The notes under the pieces are model-generated. The model was not told the origin of the DNA. It saw only the letters and a list, made by a program, of their open reading frames with translations, and did not search any database. A stretch of 29,060 bases of DNA from a virus. Both the position numbers and the translations under genes were made by a program. Below, in pieces: positions 3,506 through 18,741 of the stretch. How positions within the stretch are numbered: position 1 is the first letter of the stretch; each line of letters starts with the position of its first letter. The stretch lies in IMG/VR virus record IMGVR_UViG_3300032516_000134, positions 1-29,060 of that record; one strand, 5' to 3'.

Positions 3506-3745
3506 ATGTTAAAGACTTCCACAGTTAAATTTATAAACAAAATATTAAAGTACAGCACAAAACAAGAGGTCGAACATATTTCACTTAATGCAAATTTTAC
3601 AGAAAGACAACAAACAATATTTGAAATGAGATATATCAAAGGTTATGATATTGGCTTTATAGCAGATAGTTTAGGTTTTTCTGACCGAACTATAAAGCAT
3701 GATTTAAAAATAATAAGAAAAAAGATTGAGAAATTGATAAATTGA
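3506..3745 (+). CDS. Sigma-70 region-4-like HTH protein
   Basis: A 79-aa protein. Residues 30-72 (FTERQQTIFEMRYIKGYDIG, then IADSLGFSDRTIKHDLKIIR) have the pattern of sigma-factor region 4: a 'ROQ-xIF-xMRY' helix followed by a helix-turn-helix. Small proteins like this act as late-gene regulators in many Firmicute phages, though the target here is unknown. ATG 3506 fits the AAGGTGAT RBS; the GTG at 3500 lies inside it. A consensus promoter begins at its stop codon. Confidence 0.65.
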   Translation: MLKTSTVKFINKILKYSTKQEVEHISLNANFTERQQTIFEMRYIKGYDIGFIADSLGFSDRTIKHDLKIIRKKIEKLIN

Positions 3746-3777: not shown

Positions 3778-3964
3778 ATTAATTATTATATTACGAATCC
3801 AGATTTGCTTTCTGCCGTCTGCGGAAATTCCCGCAGACCTATTAGTTCAAAAAATAATGACTGGAAGTAACGAATTAACATGTACTTGTGCACACCCACA
3901 AACTGCAAATAATTATAATGTTAATAAAAAACGGCTAGACCTTAGGGTTTAAGCCGTTTTTTTT
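3778..3964 (+). ncRNA. Candidate small RNA (promoter-to-terminator unit)
   Basis: This 338-bp gap between genes contains a promoter (3742-3771), a strong hairpin (GTCTGCGG 3817-3824 with CCGCAGAC 3831-3838, 6-nt loop), a smaller TTGTG/CACAA hairpin near 3884-3900, and a strong terminator at 3926-3964. The predicted transcript is about 185 nt. A 31-codon ORF (ATG 3857 to TAA, beginning MTGSNELTCT) lies inside but has no ribosome-binding site. I match it to no known RNA family. Confidence 0.5.
3926..3964 (+). terminator. Strong intrinsic terminator
   Basis: AAAAAACGGCT (3926-3936) pairs with AGCCGTTTTTT (from 3952), and the T-run extends to 3964. The A-run on the 5' side makes it potentially bidirectional. 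It separates the lysis/late end from the accessory cassette. Confidence 0.9.
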
Positions 3965-3971
3965 GTGTTGA

Positions 3972-4101
3972 AAAATAAATTAATTTAATTTAACAAAAAG
4001 TGTTGACATAGTTATAACTATGATATATAATAAGGTATAAAGTTAAGCAAAGGGCTTAGCAAAACAAAAAGGGGATAATTATTATGAAAAAATATGAAGA
4101 C
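3972..4101 (+). repeat. ~130-bp direct repeat, left copy
   Basis: This copy matches 8397-8525 with only a few differences: ATA versus TCA before the -10 box and a small change in the leader. It covers the promoter, the operator, the untranslated leader, the RBS and the first six codons (MKKYED) of the downstream gene. The two copies flank a 4.4-kb gene block. Confidence 0.95.
4003..4031 (+). promoter_or_regulatory. Consensus promoter with palindromic operator
   Basis: TTGACA (4003-4008), a 17-nt spacer and TATAAT (4026-4031) are a perfect sigma-A promoter. A perfect 16-bp palindrome, CATAGTTATAACTATG (4007-4022), fills the spacer and overlaps the -35, so a bound dimeric repressor would block RNA polymerase. 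The right-hand copy at 8429-8450 extends to a perfect 22-bp palindrome. Confidence 0.9.
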
Positions 4102-4635
4102 TTAATTAATAAATACAGCATTAAAGTTATAAATAAAGGTGAAGCTTTAGGATTTTATAACGGTAAGCCAACCCAATCAGACATATTATTTTTAAAAGCA
4201 AATAAAAAAGAAATTACTGCATTTATACAATACACTGAAAGAAAAATAAAACAAGAACAAGAAGAAAAAGAAGCAAACGAAATTAAAGTAATAACAAGCG
4301 GTTGGGAAAACCATGAAATTTATATAGATACAAGAAAAAATATAAATATACAGTTAAAAAAATATGCAGAAATCTACAGTAATGATTGCAGTATTACAAG
4401 CCTTAAAGCAGATTTTAAAAAAGCGGTTGATAAAAAAGAAAAAATACAAAAAGAGGAACAAGACAAAGAAGAAAAAATACAAGCAATATTTATAAAAGCA
4501 AAAGAAACAAACAAAGAACAAGTGTTATCAGTTACAAAGCAAGCTATAGAAACAGATACAGATTACATTATTAAAACCACAACAGTATACGCACAGCCAG
4601 ACGGCACAACAACAACAAGCATTATTTCTTATTAA
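4084..4635 (+). CDS. Hypothetical protein, first gene of the accessory cassette
   Basis: A 183-aa, Lys/Glu-rich soluble protein with probable coiled coil around residues 55-75 and 115-140. No recognised domain. RBS is AAGGGG, with a long leader shared with the gene at 8508. Its first residues (MKKYED) are identical to those of the 8508 product because both lie in the direct repeat; beyond that the two proteins do not resemble each other. Confidence 0.7.
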   Translation: MKKYEDLINKYSIKVINKGEALGFYNGKPTQSDILFLKANKKEITAFIQYTERKIKQEQEEKEANEIKVITSGWENHEIYIDTRKNINIQLKKYAEIYSNDCSITSLKADFKKAVDKKEKIQKEEQDKEEKIQAIFIKAKETNKEQVLSVTKQAIETDTDYIIKTTTVYAQPDGTTTTSIISY

Positions 4636-4646
4636 ATAATACACAG

Positions 4647-4661
4647 GGGGCGGTACGCCCC
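4647..4661 (+). other. GC-rich hairpin in intergenic leader
   Basis: GGGGCG (4647-4652) and CGCCCC (4656-4661) pair around a 3-nt GTA loop. An AGGAGG ribosome-binding site follows at once. There is no T-run, so it is more likely an mRNA stabiliser or translation control element than a terminator. Confidence 0.5.
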
Positions 4662-4677
4662 TTATAGGAGGTTTATT

Positions 4678-4805
4678 ATGACAAAATTTAAAGCACCGAC
4701 ATTAAAATAAGTCATGGAAAGTCAGACGAAACATATTTAATAGTAAAAGAGCCAATAAAAATTAGCATTAATTCTGTAAAAGTTGACAAAACATTGAAAA
4801 ATTAG
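4678..4805 (+). pseudogene. Frameshifted small gene
   Basis: ATG 4678 has an excellent RBS (AGGAGG 4666-4671) but reads only MTKFKAPTLK before TAA at 4708. Moving back one base at the AAAA run gives an open continuation (ISHGKSDETYLIVKEPIKIS ...) to TAG 4803-4805, for a 42-aa protein. A missing A in the homopolymer, natural or a sequencing error, explains it best. The function of the intact form is unknown. Confidence 0.6.
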
Positions 4806-4816
4806 GAGGACATAAA

Positions 4817-5209
4817 ATGGATAGAGCTAAAATAAGAATAGTAGGTGCATATGTAATGTACAAATCAATGATAGACGAAACAAGACTTACAAACATAACT
4901 TTTTACTACAATCACTCAAACGGTCATATCAGAACAAACTATATAAAAAAGACTAAAACAGACGAAGAGTATAACAAAATAGCAAATAATTTAACTTTAT
5001 TGCATGACGAAATCGAAGGATGGTTTAAAAAGGACGCAGTTAAAGACCAGATAGTCAATGCACAAAATATGTACGCTTATAGTGGTGGATACGCTAACAC
5101 TATTACAATTGATAAAAATGAGACATATGTAAAAACTACAACTCCAGAAAAAATAATGTTTAATAATATGGATTCGTTTCAAGTTCCAGAAGAATTAAAA
5201 AATGAATAA
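4817..5209 (+). CDS. Hypothetical protein upstream of the helicase
   Basis: A 130-aa soluble protein with a Tyr/Asn-rich middle part and no recognised domain. The RBS is TAGGAGGA, 7 nt from the ATG. Its end overlaps the helicase start by 8 bp, so it is translated together with the helicase-IbrA-IbrB block. Confidence 0.7.
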   Translation: MDRAKIRIVGAYVMYKSMIDETRLTNITFYYNHSNGHIRTNYIKKTKTDEEYNKIANNLTLLHDEIEGWFKKDAVKDQIVNAQNMYAYSGGYANTITIDKNETYVKTTTPEKIMFNNMDSFQVPEELKNE

Positions 5210-6443
5210 TCAAGAACAAGCGTTTATGAAGTTTCAGAGGTTAAAAGTTGGAGCTTTATTTATGCAAATGGGAACTGGCAAAACAAAGGTAGCGGTCGAC
5301 TTAATAAATTATAATAATGCCAGTATTGATTTAGCATTATTTGTTTGCCCTAATTCAGTTAAAAATAATTTGGACATTGAAATAAAAAAATGGGGTATTT
5401 TAGCGGAATATATAATAATATGTTATGAAAATATTTCAATGTCCGATAAAGGCTATTTGCAGCTATTAAAAAAATTAGAGGACAAGAAGATATTTATTGT
5501 AGCTGATGAAAGCATTTTTATTAAAAATGAAAAAACTAAAAGGTACAAAAGATTATTAGAATTAAGACATAAAAGTAATTATGCTTTAATTCTAAATGGG
5601 ACACCTATCGTTAAAAATGAATGGGACTTATATAATCAAATGCACTTTTTAAGTCCTAAAATTTTAAACATGGGAAGAGAAGAATTTCTTAATACTTTTT
5701 TCAAGCACGTTATATATAAAAAAGAGGGGCAAAAAGAAAGAGATTTTTATGTGTTTAGTAAAGTAAATGCTGATTATTTAAATAAGTTAATTCAACCTTA
5801 CGTTTTTGAGTCTAAATTAGATATAGACATAAAAGAAAAAACTTATTTTAAAAAAATATTATGTAGCGATGAAACTAATGCTACTTATGTAGATAAAAAA
5901 GAAGAACTTTTAAAAGCGTTAGCAAATTTTAATAAAGATGCATTTATTAAAAAATTAATAAAATTATGCTATATATCAGCTACAGATAAAAACAAGAATA
6001 TGGAAATTCAAAATTTTATAAAAAATAGAAAGGTTATTTGTTTTTGCAACTATATAAAAGAAATTAATCAGATTGCTAAAGATTTAGATTGCTATATTAT
6101 AAGCGGAAAAGTGAAAACAGAACAAAGAAATTCTATAATAGAAAGTTTTAGAAATAATAACAAACCTCTTTTAATAACTTTAGGAACTGGGTCTTATGGA
6201 TTAAATTTACAATTTTGTAACGAAATAATATTTTCCAGTCTATCTTTTGATTTTGGCAAAATAGAACAAGCAAAATATAGGATAAAAAGAATAGGTCAAC
6301 AAGAAGACATAAAATACACCTATTTTTTCAATGAATTAAAAATAAATGAATTGATGTACGACAATTTAAATAAAAAATCCAATTTAAGTAAATTGGTAGA
6401 GGAAAAACTACAGGCGGGTGAAAAATGGGAAAAAATTATTTAG
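5202..6443 (+). CDS. SNF2-like superfamily 2 helicase
   Basis: A 413-aa protein carrying SF2 motifs: Q-motif and Walker A region (residues 20-31, MQMGTGKTKVAV), a DExx box (VADESIFIKN, about residue 100), motif III-like LNGTPIVKNEWDLYNQ (about 132-147), motif V (TLGTGSYGLNLQ) and motif VI (QAKYRIKRIGQ) in the second RecA domain. The motif order and the QxxxRxxRIGQ form fit the SNF2 branch: ATP-driven translocation on duplex DNA. It is short for SNF2, with no extra domains. The stop overlaps the next gene's start by 19 bp, and the neighbours are IbrA- and IbrB-like, so the three probably act together. Confidence 0.88.
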   Translation: MNNQEQAFMKFQRLKVGALFMQMGTGKTKVAVDLINYNNASIDLALFVCPNSVKNNLDIEIKKWGILAEYIIICYENISMSDKGYLQLLKKLEDKKIFIVADESIFIKNEKTKRYKRLLELRHKSNYALILNGTPIVKNEWDLYNQMHFLSPKILNMGREEFLNTFFKHVIYKKEGQKERDFYVFSKVNADYLNKLIQPYVFESKLDIDIKEKTYFKKILCSDETNATYVDKKEELLKALANFNKDAFIKKLIKLCYISATDKNKNMEIQNFIKNRKVICFCNYIKEINQIAKDLDCYIISGKVKTEQRNSIIESFRNNNKPLLITLGTGSYGLNLQFCNEIIFSSLSFDFGKIEQAKYRIKRIGQQEDIKYTYFFNELKINELMYDNLNKKSNLSKLVEEKLQAGEKWEKII

Positions 6444-7711
6444 ATTTAAATGTATACGACATGGCTAAAAAGCGTATACAGTATGTCTTTGATGAGTTTG
6501 AAGCAGAAGAAATATGGTTAAGTTTTAGCGGTGGAAAAGATAGTGCAGTTATATATTATCTTGCTAAACAAGAAGCTTTAACAAGAGGTATTAAATATAT
6601 CAACTTGCTAATAATTGATTTAGAGGGTCACTACAAATTACATGCAGATTTTTTAGATGAAATTATAAATGATGAAGATATAGAAGTTAGAGGTTATCAT
6701 ATTTGCTTACCCTTTAATTTAAGCAACGCATCTTCTGTTTATATGCCTAAATGGTTATGTTGGGATTTAAACGAAAAAGGAAAATGGATTAGAGAAATGC
6801 CTAATAATAAAATAGTTATAAATGAAGAAAATAACCCTTTTGGAGATTACTTTAGGCAAGGTATGGAGTTTGAAGAGTTTATAATACAGTTCCCTAAATT
6901 TTTAATAGAGCAAAAAGGATTAAAAAAAGTAGCACAATTTATAGGTATACGAACGCAAGAGAGCTACAACAGATACTTAAAGATGAAAGTTAAACAAAAC
7001 AGGGAATTTTATAAAGATAACCAATATATTTTAAAGCAAAAAACAACTGGTTATGAAACGTTTAGCGCACACCCTATTTACGATTGGCTGACAGAAGATG
7101 TCTGGAAATATTTACACAACAAGCCGTACAATAAAGTTTATGATTTAATGTATTTATCAGGCATGCCATTAAAACATATGAGGATATGCCAACCTTTTGG
7201 GGAAGAACAAAGGGATAATATAGATTTGTTTGCAAAAATAGAACCAGAAACTTGGGATAAAATGAACGCTAGAGTTTATGGGGCTAATTTTGCAAAAATA
7301 TACGGCGGTAAAAATGTATTAAAAGGCAGGATAACAACGCCAGACGGTGTAACATGGGAACAGTGGACTAGATTAATATTAAATACTATGCCACCTTTTT
7401 TAAGGGAGCATTATATAAGACGTATCAATGTATTTCTAAGGTGGTGGAGAAAGGAGATATATAAAGATATTGAGCACGTATATGCAAATAAATATGCAGA
7501 AAATGAGATGTTTGATAAGGACGGCTTATACATCGTAGATATTTACGATGAGCATATAGACGACGTTAATAAAATGCAACCTTCATGGCGTCGCATATGC
7601 AAAGTGTTATTAAAGGGCGACTTTCTATGTAAAAATCTAACCTTTTCAGCCAATAAAAAAGAATACGAAAAATTAGAGGAGCTAAAAACAAAATGGGAAA
7701 ACATAATATAA
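6425..7711 (+). CDS. IbrA-like PAPS-reductase-family protein (DUF3440 type)
   Basis: A 428-aa protein of the PP-loop ATPase superfamily. The adenylation loop SGGKDS is at residues 35-40, followed by a Rossmann-like region (LLIIDLEGHY). Further motifs are IGIRTQESYNRYL and HPIYDWLTEDVWKYL, typical of phosphoadenosine-phosphosulfate reductase relatives. The C-terminal half fits the DUF3440 extension found in E. coli IbrA. The substrate is unknown; the fold activates by adenylation. In E. coli, IbrA and the ParB-like IbrB are co-activators of prophage (eib) gene expression. The gene overlaps both neighbours (19 bp each), strong evidence of a coupled complex or pathway. Confidence 0.88.
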   Translation: MGKNYLDLNVYDMAKKRIQYVFDEFEAEEIWLSFSGGKDSAVIYYLAKQEALTRGIKYINLLIIDLEGHYKLHADFLDEIINDEDIEVRGYHICLPFNLSNASSVYMPKWLCWDLNEKGKWIREMPNNKIVINEENNPFGDYFRQGMEFEEFIIQFPKFLIEQKGLKKVAQFIGIRTQESYNRYLKMKVKQNREFYKDNQYILKQKTTGYETFSAHPIYDWLTEDVWKYLHNKPYNKVYDLMYLSGMPLKHMRICQPFGEEQRDNIDLFAKIEPETWDKMNARVYGANFAKIYGGKNVLKGRITTPDGVTWEQWTRLILNTMPPFLREHYIRRINVFLRWWRKEIYKDIEHVYANKYAENEMFDKDGLYIVDIYDEHIDDVNKMQPSWRRICKVLLKGDFLCKNLTFSANKKEYEKLEELKTKWENII

Positions 7712-8193
7712 AAATGCCAGTTTTAGACGTTAAATTAATACCATTAGATAAAATAAAAGCTAACGATTACAACCCTAATAAGGTTGCAACACCAGAAATG
7801 AAGCTACTAGCACACAGCATAAGAGAAGACGGCTACACTATGCCGATTGTAGTTGTCTATGACACAGAAAATGATATGTATGTTATAGTAGATGGCTTTC
7901 ATCGTTATAGATGTGCAAAAGAAATATTTAAATTACAGGCTATACCATGCACTATTTTAGATAAACCTATAAAAGATAGGATGGCTTCTACAATAAGACA
8001 TAACAGAGCAAGAGGGGAGCATCAAGTGGTAAATATGAGCGGTATAGTAGCAGAGCTATTTGTGCTTGGTTGGGAAGATGAAGAGATAGGCAAACATTTA
8101 GGTATGGGGGCGGATGAGGTTTTAAGATTAAAGCAAAACACCGGAATAAGTGAAATATTTAAAAATCATGCTTATTCTAAAAGTTGGGAATAG
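7693..8193 (+). CDS. IbrB-like ParB/Srx-domain protein
   Basis: A 166-aa protein. Residues 8-95 are a ParB N-terminal-type domain: IPLDKIKANDYNPN, then IREDGYTMPIVVVYD, IVDGFHRYRCAKE (the GxxRxxA-like nucleotide-binding box) and AIPCTILD. RHNRARGEH (about residue 98) is characteristic of the IbrB/ParB-like subgroup. A C-terminal HTH-like stretch (DEEIGKHLGMGADEVLRLKQ) follows. It starts inside the IbrA-like gene. ParB-type domains bind CTP in partition proteins, but whether this one does is unknown. Confidence 0.87.
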   Translation: MGKHNIKMPVLDVKLIPLDKIKANDYNPNKVATPEMKLLAHSIREDGYTMPIVVVYDTENDMYVIVDGFHRYRCAKEIFKLQAIPCTILDKPIKDRMASTIRHNRARGEHQVVNMSGIVAELFVLGWEDEEIGKHLGMGADEVLRLKQNTGISEIFKNHAYSKSWE

Positions 8194-8220
8194 TAAAATA
8201 CAAAAGAAAGGAGGTTAGCG

Positions 8221-8403
8221 ATGAAAGAGTTTAATCAGTTAAAATATATATCAGACTATCAAAAAGAGTTTACAAAAAGATACACATTTACACTAAACAC
8301 AAAGCACGACCAAGATTTAATTAACGACCTTGCCAACACTACAGAGCCAATGGCTACTAGAGTTAAAAGGCTTTTAAGGGAAGATAAAATAAAAATAAAA
8401 TAA
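8221..8403 (+). CDS. Small ribbon-helix-helix-like protein, candidate repressor of the flanking promoters
   Basis: A 60-aa protein. A conserved YQKEFTKRY start precedes a strand-like TFTLNTKHD segment and two predicted helices (DLINDLANT, ATRVKRLLRED), which fits a ribbon-helix-helix fold. The gene at 14892 has the same plan (NSEFIKVY ... NEYVRGLIRSD). Each lies directly upstream of a consensus promoter with a palindromic operator, so autoregulation is a reasonable inference. RBS is the strong GAAAGGAGG. Confidence 0.6.
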   Translation: MKEFNQLKYISDYQKEFTKRYTFTLNTKHDQDLINDLANTTEPMATRVKRLLREDKIKIK

Positions 8404-8525
8404 ATTAATTTAATTTAACAAAAAGTGTTGACATAGTTATAACTATGTCATATAATAAGGTATAAAGTTAATTAAGGGCTTAGCAAAACAAAAAGGGGAT
8501 AATTATTATGAAAAAATATGAAGAC
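8397..8525 (+). repeat. ~130-bp direct repeat, right copy
   Basis: Second copy of 3972-4101. It starts at the end of the RHH-like gene and runs through promoter, operator, leader and the first six codons of the 8508 gene. Recombination between the copies would delete the whole helicase-IbrA-IbrB block and leave one promoter intact. Confidence 0.95.
8428..8456 (+). promoter_or_regulatory. Consensus promoter with 22-bp perfect palindromic operator
   Basis: TTGACA (8428-8433) and TATAAT (8451-8456) are separated by 17 nt. Bases 8429-8450 form a perfect 22-bp palindrome (half-site TGACATAGTTA) reaching from within the -35 box to the -10 box. This is the more complete of two related operators and probably the stronger repressor site. 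Confidence 0.9.
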
Positions 8526-8789
8526 AAAACAGAATTTAAAAAGATGTTAAGAGAGGGCGGTTATGAAACATGGGTTGTAGTTTATAAAAACGGAACTTGG
8601 GAAGCAACAGAATATTTTGAACACATTTTCACTTTAGAAGATTGCAATAGAGATAGAGTTTACGAAAACAAACTCAAAGAAAACCCAGAAGTTATAGAAG
8701 TTTATAATATGTGGGAAACTGGAGAAAGTTTTACGAGAACTAACAATATAGTTAAAGCGCTAGAGTTAAAAATTAACAAGGTGGCTTAA
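8508..8789 (+). CDS. Hypothetical protein under the right-hand operator promoter
   Basis: A 93-aa acidic soluble protein (KNGTWEATEYFEHIFTLEDC in the middle part), with no membrane segment and no recognised domain. The RBS AAGGGG and the leader are shared with the 4084 gene. It is the first gene of the operon that carries the structured leaders and the Spo0E-like gene. Confidence 0.7.
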   Translation: MKKYEDKTEFKKMLREGGYETWVVVYKNGTWEATEYFEHIFTLEDCNRDRVYENKLKENPEVIEVYNMWETGESFTRTNNIVKALELKINKVA

Positions 8790-9302: not shown

Positions 9303-9701
9303 ATGAAAAATGAATTTGAACAAATCGTAACAAATTGTCCCAAATGTGGGTCAGATAACATTGAATACCAACTAACAGCAGATAACTTAACTGGTAGTGA
9401 CTTAAGTAAAAAAGCTTTAGGGTTCGCAATCTTTGGTTGGTTGTCATTTGCAAAACCACCAAGTAATGATGATAAAAGCACGACTTATTTATTTTGCAAG
9501 AAGTGTGGTTACAAGCAAAACAAAACACTGCAAAAGAAAAAAGCTGCTGACCAACGAATGGTTAAAAGATGGGTTATAGGAATGGCTATTTTTGCCCTCA
9601 CAATGATTGTCGTAGCTAACTATCCACTACACCCATCTGAAATTTTTTTTATAGCAATTATAATAATTTCTATAATTACAGTAAAAATTAGAAAAAAATA
9701 A
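9303..9701 (+). CDS. Zinc-ribbon membrane protein
   Basis: A 132-aa protein. CPKCGSDN (residues 12-19) and FCKKCGYKQ (residues 63-71) form a four-cysteine zinc ribbon split by about 45 residues. Two hydrophobic helices follow (about residues 91-105 and 112-127). The lysines after the last helix are encoded by the start of the AAAAAAAT repeat. Function unknown; it is co-transcribed with the Spo0E-like gene and ends the operon before a terminator. Confidence 0.75.
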   Translation: MKNEFEQIVTNCPKCGSDNIEYQLTADNLTGSDLSKKALGFAIFGWLSFAKPPSNDDKSTTYLFCKKCGYKQNKTLQKKKAADQRMVKRWVIGMAIFALTMIVVANYPLHPSEIFFIAIIIISIITVKIRKK

Positions 9702-9747
9702 AAAAATAAAAAAATAAAAAAATAAAAAAATAAAAAAATAAAAAAAT
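9692..9747 (+). repeat. 8-bp tandem repeat AAAAAAAT x7
   Basis: Seven perfect copies of AAAAAAAT, followed by AAAAAAG. The array overlaps the last codons of the zinc-ribbon membrane protein; every unit contains a TAA. Copy number is expected to vary by slippage, changing the 3' end of the gene and the distance to the terminator. Confidence 0.95.
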
Positions 9748-9763
9748 AAAAAAGTAATATTTT

Positions 9764-9793
9764 TAACCCCTATTAATTTAGGGGTTATTTTTT
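9764..9793 (+). terminator. Intrinsic terminator
   Basis: TAACCCC (9764-9770) pairs with GGGGTTA (9781-9787) around a 10-nt loop, and a T-run (TTTTTT) follows. It ends the ribozyme/Spo0E operon. Confidence 0.85.
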
Positions 9794-9891: not shown

Positions 9892-10059
9892 ATGACACAT
9901 AGCTTAAAAGATTTAGATGAAATGTTTGATCAGCTCTTTAATGCAACACAAAAAGAGCTTGACTTATCAATCGCCAAGAATATGTATACAAAAGAATTGG
10001 TCGAGTGTGTAGCTTTAACTTTGCATTTAGGTTATGAAAGGCTTAAAAATGATAAATAA
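9892..10059 (+). CDS. Hypothetical small protein, start of unknown module
   Basis: A 55-aa acidic, probably helical protein (SLKDLDEMFDQLFNATQKEL ...). ATG 9892 follows AAGGGGG by 9 nt; the frame is open further upstream without an RBS. It overlaps the next gene by 11 bp. No domain recognised. Confidence 0.6.
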   Translation: MTHSLKDLDEMFDQLFNATQKELDLSIAKNMYTKELVECVALTLHLGYERLKNDK

Positions 10060-10306
10060 ATTAATAAATCCAATAGATATATATAAACCAAATGAAGCTA
10101 AAACTTTAAAAATGGTAACGAAAAATAATCAAGATGTTAATTCTTGCGCTACTTCTTTTTTAAAAGACATCAAAGAATTAGATAGAAATAAACTTAAGAA
10201 CATGATTAACAAAGGATATTTTAGCGGAGAAAATATAGCTATAGCTTATGGCGTAGATCCAAAAAGTTTTTTAGAAAGTTTGAGAAATTTATTATTAATT
10301 AATTAA
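10049..10306 (+). CDS. Hypothetical helical protein
   Basis: An 85-aa soluble protein. ATG 10049 has a GAAAGG RBS 7 nt upstream and overlaps the previous gene, so it is preferred over ATG 10034. The second half (LKNMINKGYFSGENIAIAYG, then VDPKSFLESL) alternates short helices. No family recognised. Confidence 0.6.
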   Translation: MINKLINPIDIYKPNEAKTLKMVTKNNQDVNSCATSFLKDIKELDRNKLKNMINKGYFSGENIAIAYGVDPKSFLESLRNLLLIN

Positions 10307-14751: not shown

Positions 14752-14814
14752 AAATACCAAGTATTAATATTTGTAGTCCTTTTTTAATTAAAAAAAAGCT
14801 GTTGATAAAAAGTA

Positions 14815-14843
14815 TTGACACTTGCTAGTAAGTGTTTTATGCT
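14815..14843 (+). promoter_or_regulatory. Promoter with near-palindromic operator
   Basis: TTGACA (14815-14820), 17-nt spacer, TATGCT (14838-14843). ACACTTGCTAGTAAGTGT (14818-14835) is a palindrome with a single mismatched pair and spans the spacer. A closely related site lies at 15136-15153. The upstream GTTGATAAAAAGTAT is also shared by both promoters. Confidence 0.85.
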
Positions 14844-14891
14844 ATGTATATAGTTAAAAAATAAATTGTATTAAAAAATAAGGAGAATTAA

Positions 14892-15092
14892 ATGGCAGAA
14901 AAAGAAAAATTTGATAAAGCGAAATATAACTCGGAATTTATCAAGGTTTATAGGCAAAACTCAATACAAAAGGTTATGTATTTTAAAAATGATGACCCCT
15001 TAATGGAATATGTCAAAAGTTTGCCCAAGCGAAGTTTTAACGAATATGTAAGAGGCTTAATACGAAGCGATATGGAGCTTAAAAATAAATAA
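14892..15092 (+). CDS. Probable ribbon-helix-helix regulator
   Basis: A 66-aa basic protein beginning MAEKEKFDKAKYNSEFIKVY, as in small phage Arc-like proteins. A strand segment (NSIQKVMYF) and two helices (PLMEYVKSL, SFNEYVRGLIRSDME) follow, consistent with RHH. It is placed between two promoters with the same operator (14818-14835, 15136-15153), so it probably represses both. The gene at 8221 has a similar plan and similar operator-adjacent position. Confidence 0.62.
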   Translation: MAEKEKFDKAKYNSEFIKVYRQNSIQKVMYFKNDDPLMEYVKSLPKRSFNEYVRGLIRSDMELKNK

Positions 15093-15132
15093 ATCTGTTG
15101 ATAACTTGTGAAGAATTGTTGATAAAAAAGTA

Positions 15133-15161
15133 TTGACATTTACAAGTAAGCGTAGTATAAT
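15133..15161 (+). promoter_or_regulatory. Consensus promoter with related operator
   Basis: TTGACA (15133-15138), 17-nt spacer and TATAAT (15156-15161). Bases 15136-15153 match the 14818-14835 operator at 14 of 18 positions, including AGTAAG. It drives the RecU operon. Confidence 0.88.
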
Positions 15162-15193
15162 ATATATATGTTAAAGTAAGAGAGGTGATTAAA

Positions 15194-15358
15194 ATAATTA
15201 AAAATTAATATTTTAATGCTATAAAGTTTCTACCTTTGCTAATTATAATTGTGCTGTTATACGGACAATACACGGTTTTAGCAACAGGATTTGCTTTAGG
15301 CTTAATGCTTAATGCTTAATGCTTAATGCTGGGAAACCTTAATCAAAAAAGGAGTTAA
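15194..15358 (+). pseudogene. Disrupted small membrane-protein gene
   Basis: After a good RBS (AGAGGTGAT) the expected start is ATA, followed three codons later by TAA (15206). The frame then continues as YFNAIKFLPLLIIIVLLYGQ YTVLATGFALGLML, a single membrane helix. It stops again inside a 7-bp repeat array (15301-15328). Removing three of the four repeat units (21 bp) restores GLMLGNLNQKRS up to TAA 15358. The two lesions make it a pseudogene now. Confidence 0.6.
15301..15328 (+). repeat. 7-bp tandem repeat CTTAATG x4
   Basis: Four perfect copies of CTTAATG followed by CTGGGAAACC. With one copy the membrane-protein frame stays open; with four it stops. This is a slippage-prone array. Confidence 0.95.
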
Positions 15359-17895: not shown

Positions 17896-18741
17896 ATAGA
17901 TAATCCAAATTATTACGCAGTAATACCTGCAAACGTAAGATACTCTAAGGCAATTTCTCCACAAGAAAAATTGCTATATGCTGAAATAAGTTCCTTATCT
18001 AATGCAAAGGGGTACTGTTGGGCTACAAATGAATATTTTTCAGAGCTTTACGATTTAAGTAAAAGAACGGTCTCTAGACAAATATCTAACTTAGAAAAAA
18101 AAGGGTTTTTAGTTATTAAGATGATATATAAGGCTAACTCTAAACAAGTTGAATCAAGGAAAATTTATATAGTTCAAAATACAGAACAAGTGCACCAAAA
18201 TAGCGTTAAAAACCTAGTAGAAGAAAATAAAAATATAGAAGAAAACACCCATACCCCTATAGACAAAAATGTCTATACCCCTATAGACAAAAATGTCTAT
18301 ACCTATAGACAAAAATGTCTATACCCTATGGACAAAAATGTCTATGATAATAATAAAGATTTAATATTAAATAATAATAAAGATAAAAAGATATATAGCT
18401 CGGCAGAGCCAAACCTTGTGTATCAAATAGTCGGACACTTAAATTTAATGGCTGGAACAAATTACAAACCAAGTAGCAAGTCTACTCAAAACAAAATCAA
18501 TGCACGATTGAACGAGGGACACAGTCTCGACGACTTTATAGTTGTTATTGATAAAAAATGTCATGACTGGCTTGATAGTGACAAAGAAATGTATTTGAGA
18601 CCAGAGACCCTATTTGGCAATAAATTTGAGGGATACGTAAACCAAAAAATTATTAAACCCTTAACAAAAAATGAAGAAGCTATTAAACGTATAGCGGAGG
18701 TTAGTATAGAGCAGGGAAGGGGTTTGTTAGATGGTTTTTAG
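17896..18741 (+). CDS. Replication initiator (HTH + phage-2220-type C-terminal domain), apparent ATA start
   Basis: A 281-aa protein. An N-terminal winged HTH (residues 20-85: PQEKLLYAEISSLSNAKGYC, LYDLSKRTVSRQISNLEKKG) and a C-terminal domain (YKPSSKSTQNKINARLNEGH, WLDSDKEMYLRPETLFG, KFEGYVN) match phage replication organisers. The start is unusual. AAGGGGG (17881-17887) sits 8 nt before ATA, and DNPNYYAVIPANVRYSK follows as in family N-termini that begin MDNPNYY. The in-frame GTG at 17887 lies inside the RBS. Residues 121-150 are encoded by the iteron cluster. The stop overlaps the next gene. Confidence 0.85.
   Translation: MDNPNYYAVIPANVRYSKAISPQEKLLYAEISSLSNAKGYCWATNEYFSELYDLSKRTVSRQISNLEKKGFLVIKMIYKANSKQVESRKIYIVQNTEQVHQNSVKNLVEENKNIEENTHTPIDKNVYTPIDKNVYTYRQKCLYPMDKNVYDNNKDLILNNNKDKKIYSSAEPNLVYQIVGHLNLMAGTNYKPSSKSTQNKINARLNEGHSLDDFIVVIDKKCHDWLDSDKEMYLRPETLFGNKFEGYVNQKIIKPLTKNEEAIKRIAEVSIEQGRGLLDGF
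18259..18345 (+). repeat. Four iterons (18-bp inverted repeats): probable replication origin
   Basis: ATAGACAAAAATGTCTAT occurs at 18259, 18283 and 18305 and, with one change (ATGGAC), at 18328. Spacings are 24, 22 and 23 bp. Each copy is an inverted repeat with an AAAAAT centre. Copies 1, 2 and 4 encode IDKNVY or MDKNVY, but copy 3 is read in another frame (YRQKCLY), so the DNA, not the protein, is conserved. Placement inside the initiator gene is typical of phage origins. Confidence 0.85.

Follow-up and report, generated by a model that had tools for sequence, protein, structure and literature searches.

A promoter-operator-leader module repeated on both sides of a helicase-IbrA-IbrB block in a viral genome, and its possible role in a self-repressed accessory operon

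The DNA stretch IMGVR_UViG_3300032516_000134 of IMG/VR, which belongs to an uncultured bacterial virus (positions 1 to 29,060; the whole of this 29,060-nucleotide stretch is called the window below) carries the same promoter-bearing direct repeat on both sides of a block of genes for a helicase, IbrA and IbrB, which raises the question of whether the two copies serve to move the block or to regulate what lies behind them. In an original prediction the repeat was taken for the borders of a module that can be gained or lost, with both promoters under one repressor, most likely that encoded at position 8221. Our analysis points to a phage accessory operon that is first switched on by a strong promoter of host type and later represses its own expression, on the plan of the operons of anti-CRISPR and anti-CRISPR-associated genes (acr-aca); we put the probability of this reading at roughly 0.64. 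The features of the locus, all on the + strand, are as follows.

3926..3962, +: terminator-like hairpin with a T run, which would separate copy 1 from the lysis genes before it
3972..4101, +: P1 (copy 1 of the repeat), -35 at 4003, -10 at 4026, ribosome-binding site AGGGG at ~4070, ATG at 4084
4084..4635, +: first operon gene, 183 aa, in the slot of the acr genes of relatives
4817..5209, +: second operon gene, 130 aa, placed and sized as the PHROG 27058 proteins of relatives
5202..6443, +: SNF2-type helicase, 413 aa, at most 52% identical to Streptococcus thermophilus phage proteins
6425..7711, +: IbrA, PAPS-reductase/DUF3440 family, 428 aa, 73% identical to its counterpart at locus L159
7693..8193, +: IbrB, ParB-like, 166 aa
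8221..8403, +: last operon gene, small (60 aa), proposed to encode an autorepressor, ribbon-helix-helix (RHH)-like by pattern only
8397..8525, +: P2 (copy 2 of the repeat), -35 at 8428, -10 at 8451, ATG at 8508
8508..8789, +: P2-driven gene, 93 aa, no relatives found

Local alignment of 3972-4101 with 8397-8525 gave 125 identical columns of 130 (96%), one gap and a score of 233, against a background of 3000 random window pairs in which the top score was 140 and the next 57; no third copy was found in the 29,060-bp record. The copies share perfect runs of ~51 and ~54 bp. Both carry a sigma-70 promoter, TTGACA-17-TATAAT, that agrees with the consensus at 12/12 positions (4003-4031; 8428-8456), a palindrome within the 17-bp spacer, the same leader and the same ribosome-binding site, and their identity ends precisely after codon six (MKKYED, ATG included) of open reading frames (ORFs) 4084 and 8508, which diverge from there on and otherwise encode unrelated proteins. 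These observations bear out the ~130-bp direct repeat that had been claimed, with its consensus promoter and the first six codons of two different genes. The claim of a palindromic operator in both copies needs some adjustment: the 22-bp palindrome TGACATAGTTATAACTATGTCA is perfect in copy 2 only (8429-8450), and copy 1 keeps the 16-bp core CATAGTTATAACTATG (4007-4022), outside which two pairs are mismatched. That the two promoters share one operator is supported, and the core-promoter inverted repeat by which acr-aca operons are recognised is present in both.

The differences between the copies are located in the operator arm and in the leader hairpin, and because of these few differences the hairpin predicted for copy 1 (4032-4086; -8.0 kcal/mol) is nearly lost in copy 2 (8457-8510; -1.6 kcal/mol). 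Copy 2 starts before the 8221 ORF has ended (stop at 8403), within its final codons, and therefore spans the entire gap between 8221 and 8508. The terminator-like hairpin (-19.3 kcal/mol, z -5.9) lies before copy 1 only and outside the repeated unit, which sets the repeat apart from promoter-stem-loop (PeSL) elements of T4-type phages; a terminator scan found none on the + strand between 8221 and copy 2.

The same operon recurs in other phages. An order of promoter and operator, small genes, SNF2 helicase, IbrA, IbrB and a small last gene was found after the lysis genes, 3' of the lysin gene, in the Streptococcus phages Pika, CHPC1062, D4276, CHPC877 and CHPC1148, and the Lactobacillus phages CR28 and phiAQ113 have a similar arrangement. 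The order is also found in a Clostridia prophage (L145), in which 108-bp repeats of promoter, ribosome-binding site and start codons (6018-6125 and 10009-10116, 79% identical) enclose a first gene, one of 129 aa, the genes for helicase, IbrA and IbrB, and a last gene of 65 aa; a small ORF lies at 9791. A third copy of this promoter, ~11 kb from the block (L255, ~4793-5290, G002:C15), drives a 131-aa ORF, an arrangement that resembles a dispersed regulon. The 131-aa ORF adjoins an endolysin-like gene and is a further anti-defence candidate. At another locus (L190), 90-bp promoter repeats with the spacer motif ACACAC-N4-GTGTGT surround IbrAB. At a further locus (L207) the palindrome TACCGT-AG-ACGGTA occupies the spacer of an upstream promoter (2926), and the gene 3' of IbrB (8046-8222) matches MazE-like (AbrB-type) proteins, possibly a further class of regulator.

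We surveyed 158 IbrAB loci for promoters matching at least 11/12 consensus positions and palindromes of at least 7 pairs. A palindrome was present in 10/25 promoters upstream of IbrAB operons and in 1/34 inside them or farther away (Fisher p 4e-4); once the window and a near-duplicate locus were removed, the upstream count was 8/22 (p 0.0015). Operators and regulators were then compared at 14 Streptococcus and Lactobacillus loci, where operator type tracks the DNA-binding gene of the operon. TGTTGAC-N4-GTCAACA occurred only at six loci with a helix-turn-helix (HTH) last gene (CHPC1230, CHPC1062, D4276, CHPC877, CHPC873 and CHPC640; p 0.005), Sfi21 having a shortened version; TACACGC-N4-GCGTGTA only in Pika, CHPC1148 and phage 94, the three whose last gene encodes the MxKVSESK protein (p 0.003); and TATCAT-N2-ATGATA only in the AcrIIA6 carriers CHPC640, CHPC642 and CHPC663 (twice), degenerate in CHPC873 (p 0.011), all three p-values being indicative only, since the Streptococcus phages share ancestry and the classes were set post hoc. 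The S. thermophilus phages CHPC873 (L249, 3085-3200 and 4437-4555) and CHPC640 (L250) have two operator-promoters each, which differ in type although they belong to a single anti-CRISPR locus: the AcrIIA6 block is preceded by the AcrIIA6-linked operator, and the unit with the HTH gene by the HTH-type operator.

Among these relatives the operon holds known anti-CRISPRs: a D4276 protein annotated as AcrIIA5 matches structure 6lkf, and a 183-aa protein of CHPC873 matches AcrIIA6 (6eyy). In CHPC663, AcrIIA6 is bracketed by a promoter-leader repeat (3549-3662 and 4566-4675, 83% identical). Every Aca family of the published acr-aca operons has a core-promoter inverted repeat and represses that promoter (PMC9410906). 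The paper that described the discovery of AcrIIA6 reported no recognisable HTH motif in AcrIIA6 or its flanking proteins, and the words promoter and palindrome do not occur in its text (PMC6060171); because of this silence the operators seen here may be undescribed, within the limited reach of our literature check. By analogy with the slot of AcrIIA5 and AcrIIA6 in relatives, we infer that 4084 and 8508 are candidate anti-defence genes. Neither showed homology to a demonstrated anti-CRISPR gene.

The product of 8221 sits in the operon slot expected of an acr-aca regulator, with a putative DNA-binding fold. It matched PHROG 17782 weakly (E 0.019), as did the last gene of the Clostridia prophage (E 5e-4); the RHH_1 match, in a relative aligned with 8221, was weak and below the cut-off (E 0.044), and the CopG match of the 8221-family profile was weak (E 0.61). 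Searches of phages by tblastn with 8221 and 14892 gave no match. An RHH protein is plausible from the sequence pattern, and by analogy with the relatives 8221 is probably the repressor that acts on both copies. As for the proposal of a single RHH-like repressor at 8221, the part that names the small last gene is likely to hold, given that operator type follows regulator type in relatives, but its RHH class is unproven.

The proposed sequence of events is as follows. At entry, host polymerase would fire both promoters at an early time; P1 would transcribe 4084, 4817, the helicase, IbrA, IbrB and finally the putative repressor gene 8221, and P2 would transcribe 8508. Accumulating 8221 protein would then occupy the spacer palindromes of P1 and P2, which lie between -35 and -10, and block RNA polymerase. 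The whole module of promoter, operator, leader and gene start would have reached the next transcription unit by copying, or would have been kept there, which would place 8508 under the same repressor as P1. Copy 2, with its longer palindrome, may be shut harder.

Several points weigh against this reading, beside the shared ancestry already given. The 8221 protein had no significant family or structure match, and searches with its family profile were not significant either. Because 4084 and 8508 have no relatives, their anti-defence role rests on position. In D4276, CHPC877 and CHPC1062 the operator is found at the operon promoter only, and the divergent HTH-like last gene of CHPC663 is not accompanied by an HTH-type operator, so that the HTH fit fails there. 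Eight genome stretches with an IbrA match, taken from the order and the phylum to which the L145 genome belongs, showed no such design of helicase, regulator and operator, and the IbrAB matches from these taxa had no comparable promoter pair or regulator.

The view that the block is an excisable or exchangeable cassette, with the promoter repeats as homologous-recombination joints like those proposed for T4-type promoter-stem-loop elements, draws on the 130 bp at 96% identity with an exact in-frame join, on the promoter repeats around blocks in CHPC663, L145 and L190, and on the finding of flanking direct repeats of at least 30 bp at 15/137 IbrA loci and 0/73 terminase control loci, although only a handful of those 15 are promoter repeats (the repeats at L106 and L198, with no recognised promoter of this type, were not counted as such). 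Gain and loss of the helicase-IbrA-IbrB unit at one site, as in the original prediction, is itself supported. Sfi21 has the order orf110, orf74a, orf140a (AcrIIA5-like), regulator, and in D4276 an orf110-like gene and AcrIIA5 are followed by 3.4 kb with a 123-aa gene and the genes for helicase, IbrA and IbrB, after which comes the regulator, with homology restarting within a few bases of the block on both sides. However, this occupied and empty pair, the only one found, comes from distant Streptococcus phages, and its block lies inside the operon with neither long flanking repeats nor promoter repeats at its ends, which argues against flanking promoter repeats as the means of gain and loss. 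So do the many carriers with a single operator-promoter and the dispersed third copy in the Clostridia prophage. Excision would also remove the proposed repressor 8221, and 8508 would stay without repression. A deleted form of this phage was not seen, and the collections hold no near relative in which one could show. Excision between the window copies is possible but unproven, and we regard the cassette as an unlikely account of the repeat; shared regulation accounts for more facts than excision.

A recent chance duplication or gene conversion, with unshared regulation and an incidental spacer palindrome, would fit the high identity of the copies and their identical codons, both of which suggest recent copying or conversion. 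We consider it very improbable: near-perfect promoters with inner palindromes recur, with different sequences, in unrelated phages, and the palindrome of copy 2 is longer rather than eroded. It is also conceivable that the operator is bound by IbrB or by a host repressor instead of 8221. ParB-family proteins are palindrome binders, and IbrB is encoded in the same operon. Yet spacer palindromes occur in CHPC640, Sfi21 and CHPC663, which have no annotated IbrAB block, and CHPC1062 and CHPC1148 both have IbrB and differ in their operators, the last gene changing with the operator. We rank IbrB below 8221 and hold another binder to be improbable.

Self-repression of an accessory operon through 8221 is thus the reading that we prefer. 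A wider version of it, in which phages use non-HTH (RHH-like) repressors of the Aca type to run counter-defence regulons that limit themselves, helicase-IbrA-IbrB is conserved cargo, 4084 and 8508 are new anti-defence genes and the repeat is both switch and exchange joint, is offered tentatively and is to be regarded as doubtful.

Among the genes between and after the copies, IbrA and IbrB form a recognised pair, a PAPS-reductase/DUF3440 protein adjoining a ParB-like protein; IbrB was present at 149/155 IbrA loci and a recognisable helicase at 31. The likeness of 4817 to PHROG 27058 is one of place and size, with no sequence match shown. Neither 4084, 4817 nor 8508 had a meaningful match in the family library, 4084 had none among solved structures, and no relatives of 4084 or 8508 were found in IMG/VR. 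The helicase matched DISARM, BREX, Zorya and Dpd helicases and IbrA matched DndC, but these matches were partial or far below the model cut-offs, and we did not take them as a sign of belonging to a defence system. For helicase-IbrA-IbrB, a part in modifying DNA or in counter-defence of another kind is conjecture. The exact operator patterns had no match in IMG/VR or GTDB, and the terminase of this phage is at most 56% identical to any in IMG/VR. Going by RecU, the strong Shine-Dalgarno sites and the relatives, the host may belong to the Bacillota.

The window holds a second promoter pair.

14807..15194, +: second promoter pair, promoters at 14815 and 15133, spacer motif ACNNTTNCNAGTAAGNGT

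These two promoters are 71% alike over 70 nt, and ACNNTTNCNAGTAAGNGT is common to both spacers and absent elsewhere in the window. Between them lies a small 8221-like ORF (14892-15092; the two proteins align at 28%), and the RecU gene (15361) is downstream. Two pairs with distinct motifs, each beside its own small gene, are consistent with self-regulation. Elsewhere, four ~24-bp direct repeats of CCTATAGACAAAAATGTCTATACC, each an inverted repeat, lie at 18256-18349 inside ORF 17887; this ORF may encode a replication protein and the repeats may be origin iterons. A tandem array of the 8-nt unit AAAAAAAT (9683-9760) lies at and just past the end of ORF 9303, and YadA-head-like repeats (SVAIG...) at 2-298 run from the window start into a tail-fibre-like protein.

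If our reading is true, strong promoters that have a spacer palindrome and recur in front of unrelated small post-lysis genes would flag uncharacterised anti-defence genes even in phages without other homology, as shared regulatory sequences did in archaeal viruses. The widespread, unexplained helicase-IbrA-IbrB set would share a self-repressed operon with proven anti-CRISPRs, which would give it a testable role, and Aca-type control in phages would reach a non-HTH repressor.

Among known systems, acr-aca operons resemble the window in their small variable genes, small regulator gene and core-promoter inverted repeat (PMC9410906). The ten Aca families of that study are all HTH proteins, whereas 8221 is not HTH by sequence; helicase-IbrA-IbrB and a second promoter copy are features of the window, and its Acr proteins are candidates only. 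The S. thermophilus operon of D4276 and the CHPC phages (AcrIIA5, helicase, IbrA, IbrB) has the post-lysis gene order and promoter design of the window, but another operator and regulator and a single operator-promoter, and its helicase and IbrA are ~31-52% identical to those of the window. T4-type PeSL elements are also promoter-bearing repeats at the borders of gene blocks and have been proposed to aid shuffling (PMC4503421, citing Arbiol 2010 and Comeau 2014); as described there they consist of an early promoter and a terminator stem-loop, whereas the window repeat consists of promoter, operator and coding start with the terminator outside. In archaeal viruses a near-identical promoter region precedes unrelated small genes together with an Aca-like repressor, as in the window, but there the promoters are of TATA/BRE type and in many copies, against two sigma-70 copies here (PMC11065993). 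The establishment regulon of clade II of the pLS20 family comprises several units whose promoters (EGeRS2) share operators of one predicted autoregulated RHH repressor, Reg, and is like the operon proposed for the window in this sharing, in ~140-bp promoter regions and in anti-restriction cargo; it differs in belonging to a conjugative plasmid and in having dual heptamers that flank the promoter in place of a spacer palindrome (PMC8708921). That 2021 paper drew a contrast between conjugative plasmids, whose repressors are of the RHH class, and phages, whose repressors are of the HTH class (PMC8708921). By these comparisons the window would hold an acr-aca-like self-repressed accessory operon, with a logic close to that of RHH-controlled plasmid establishment regulons (PMC8708921).

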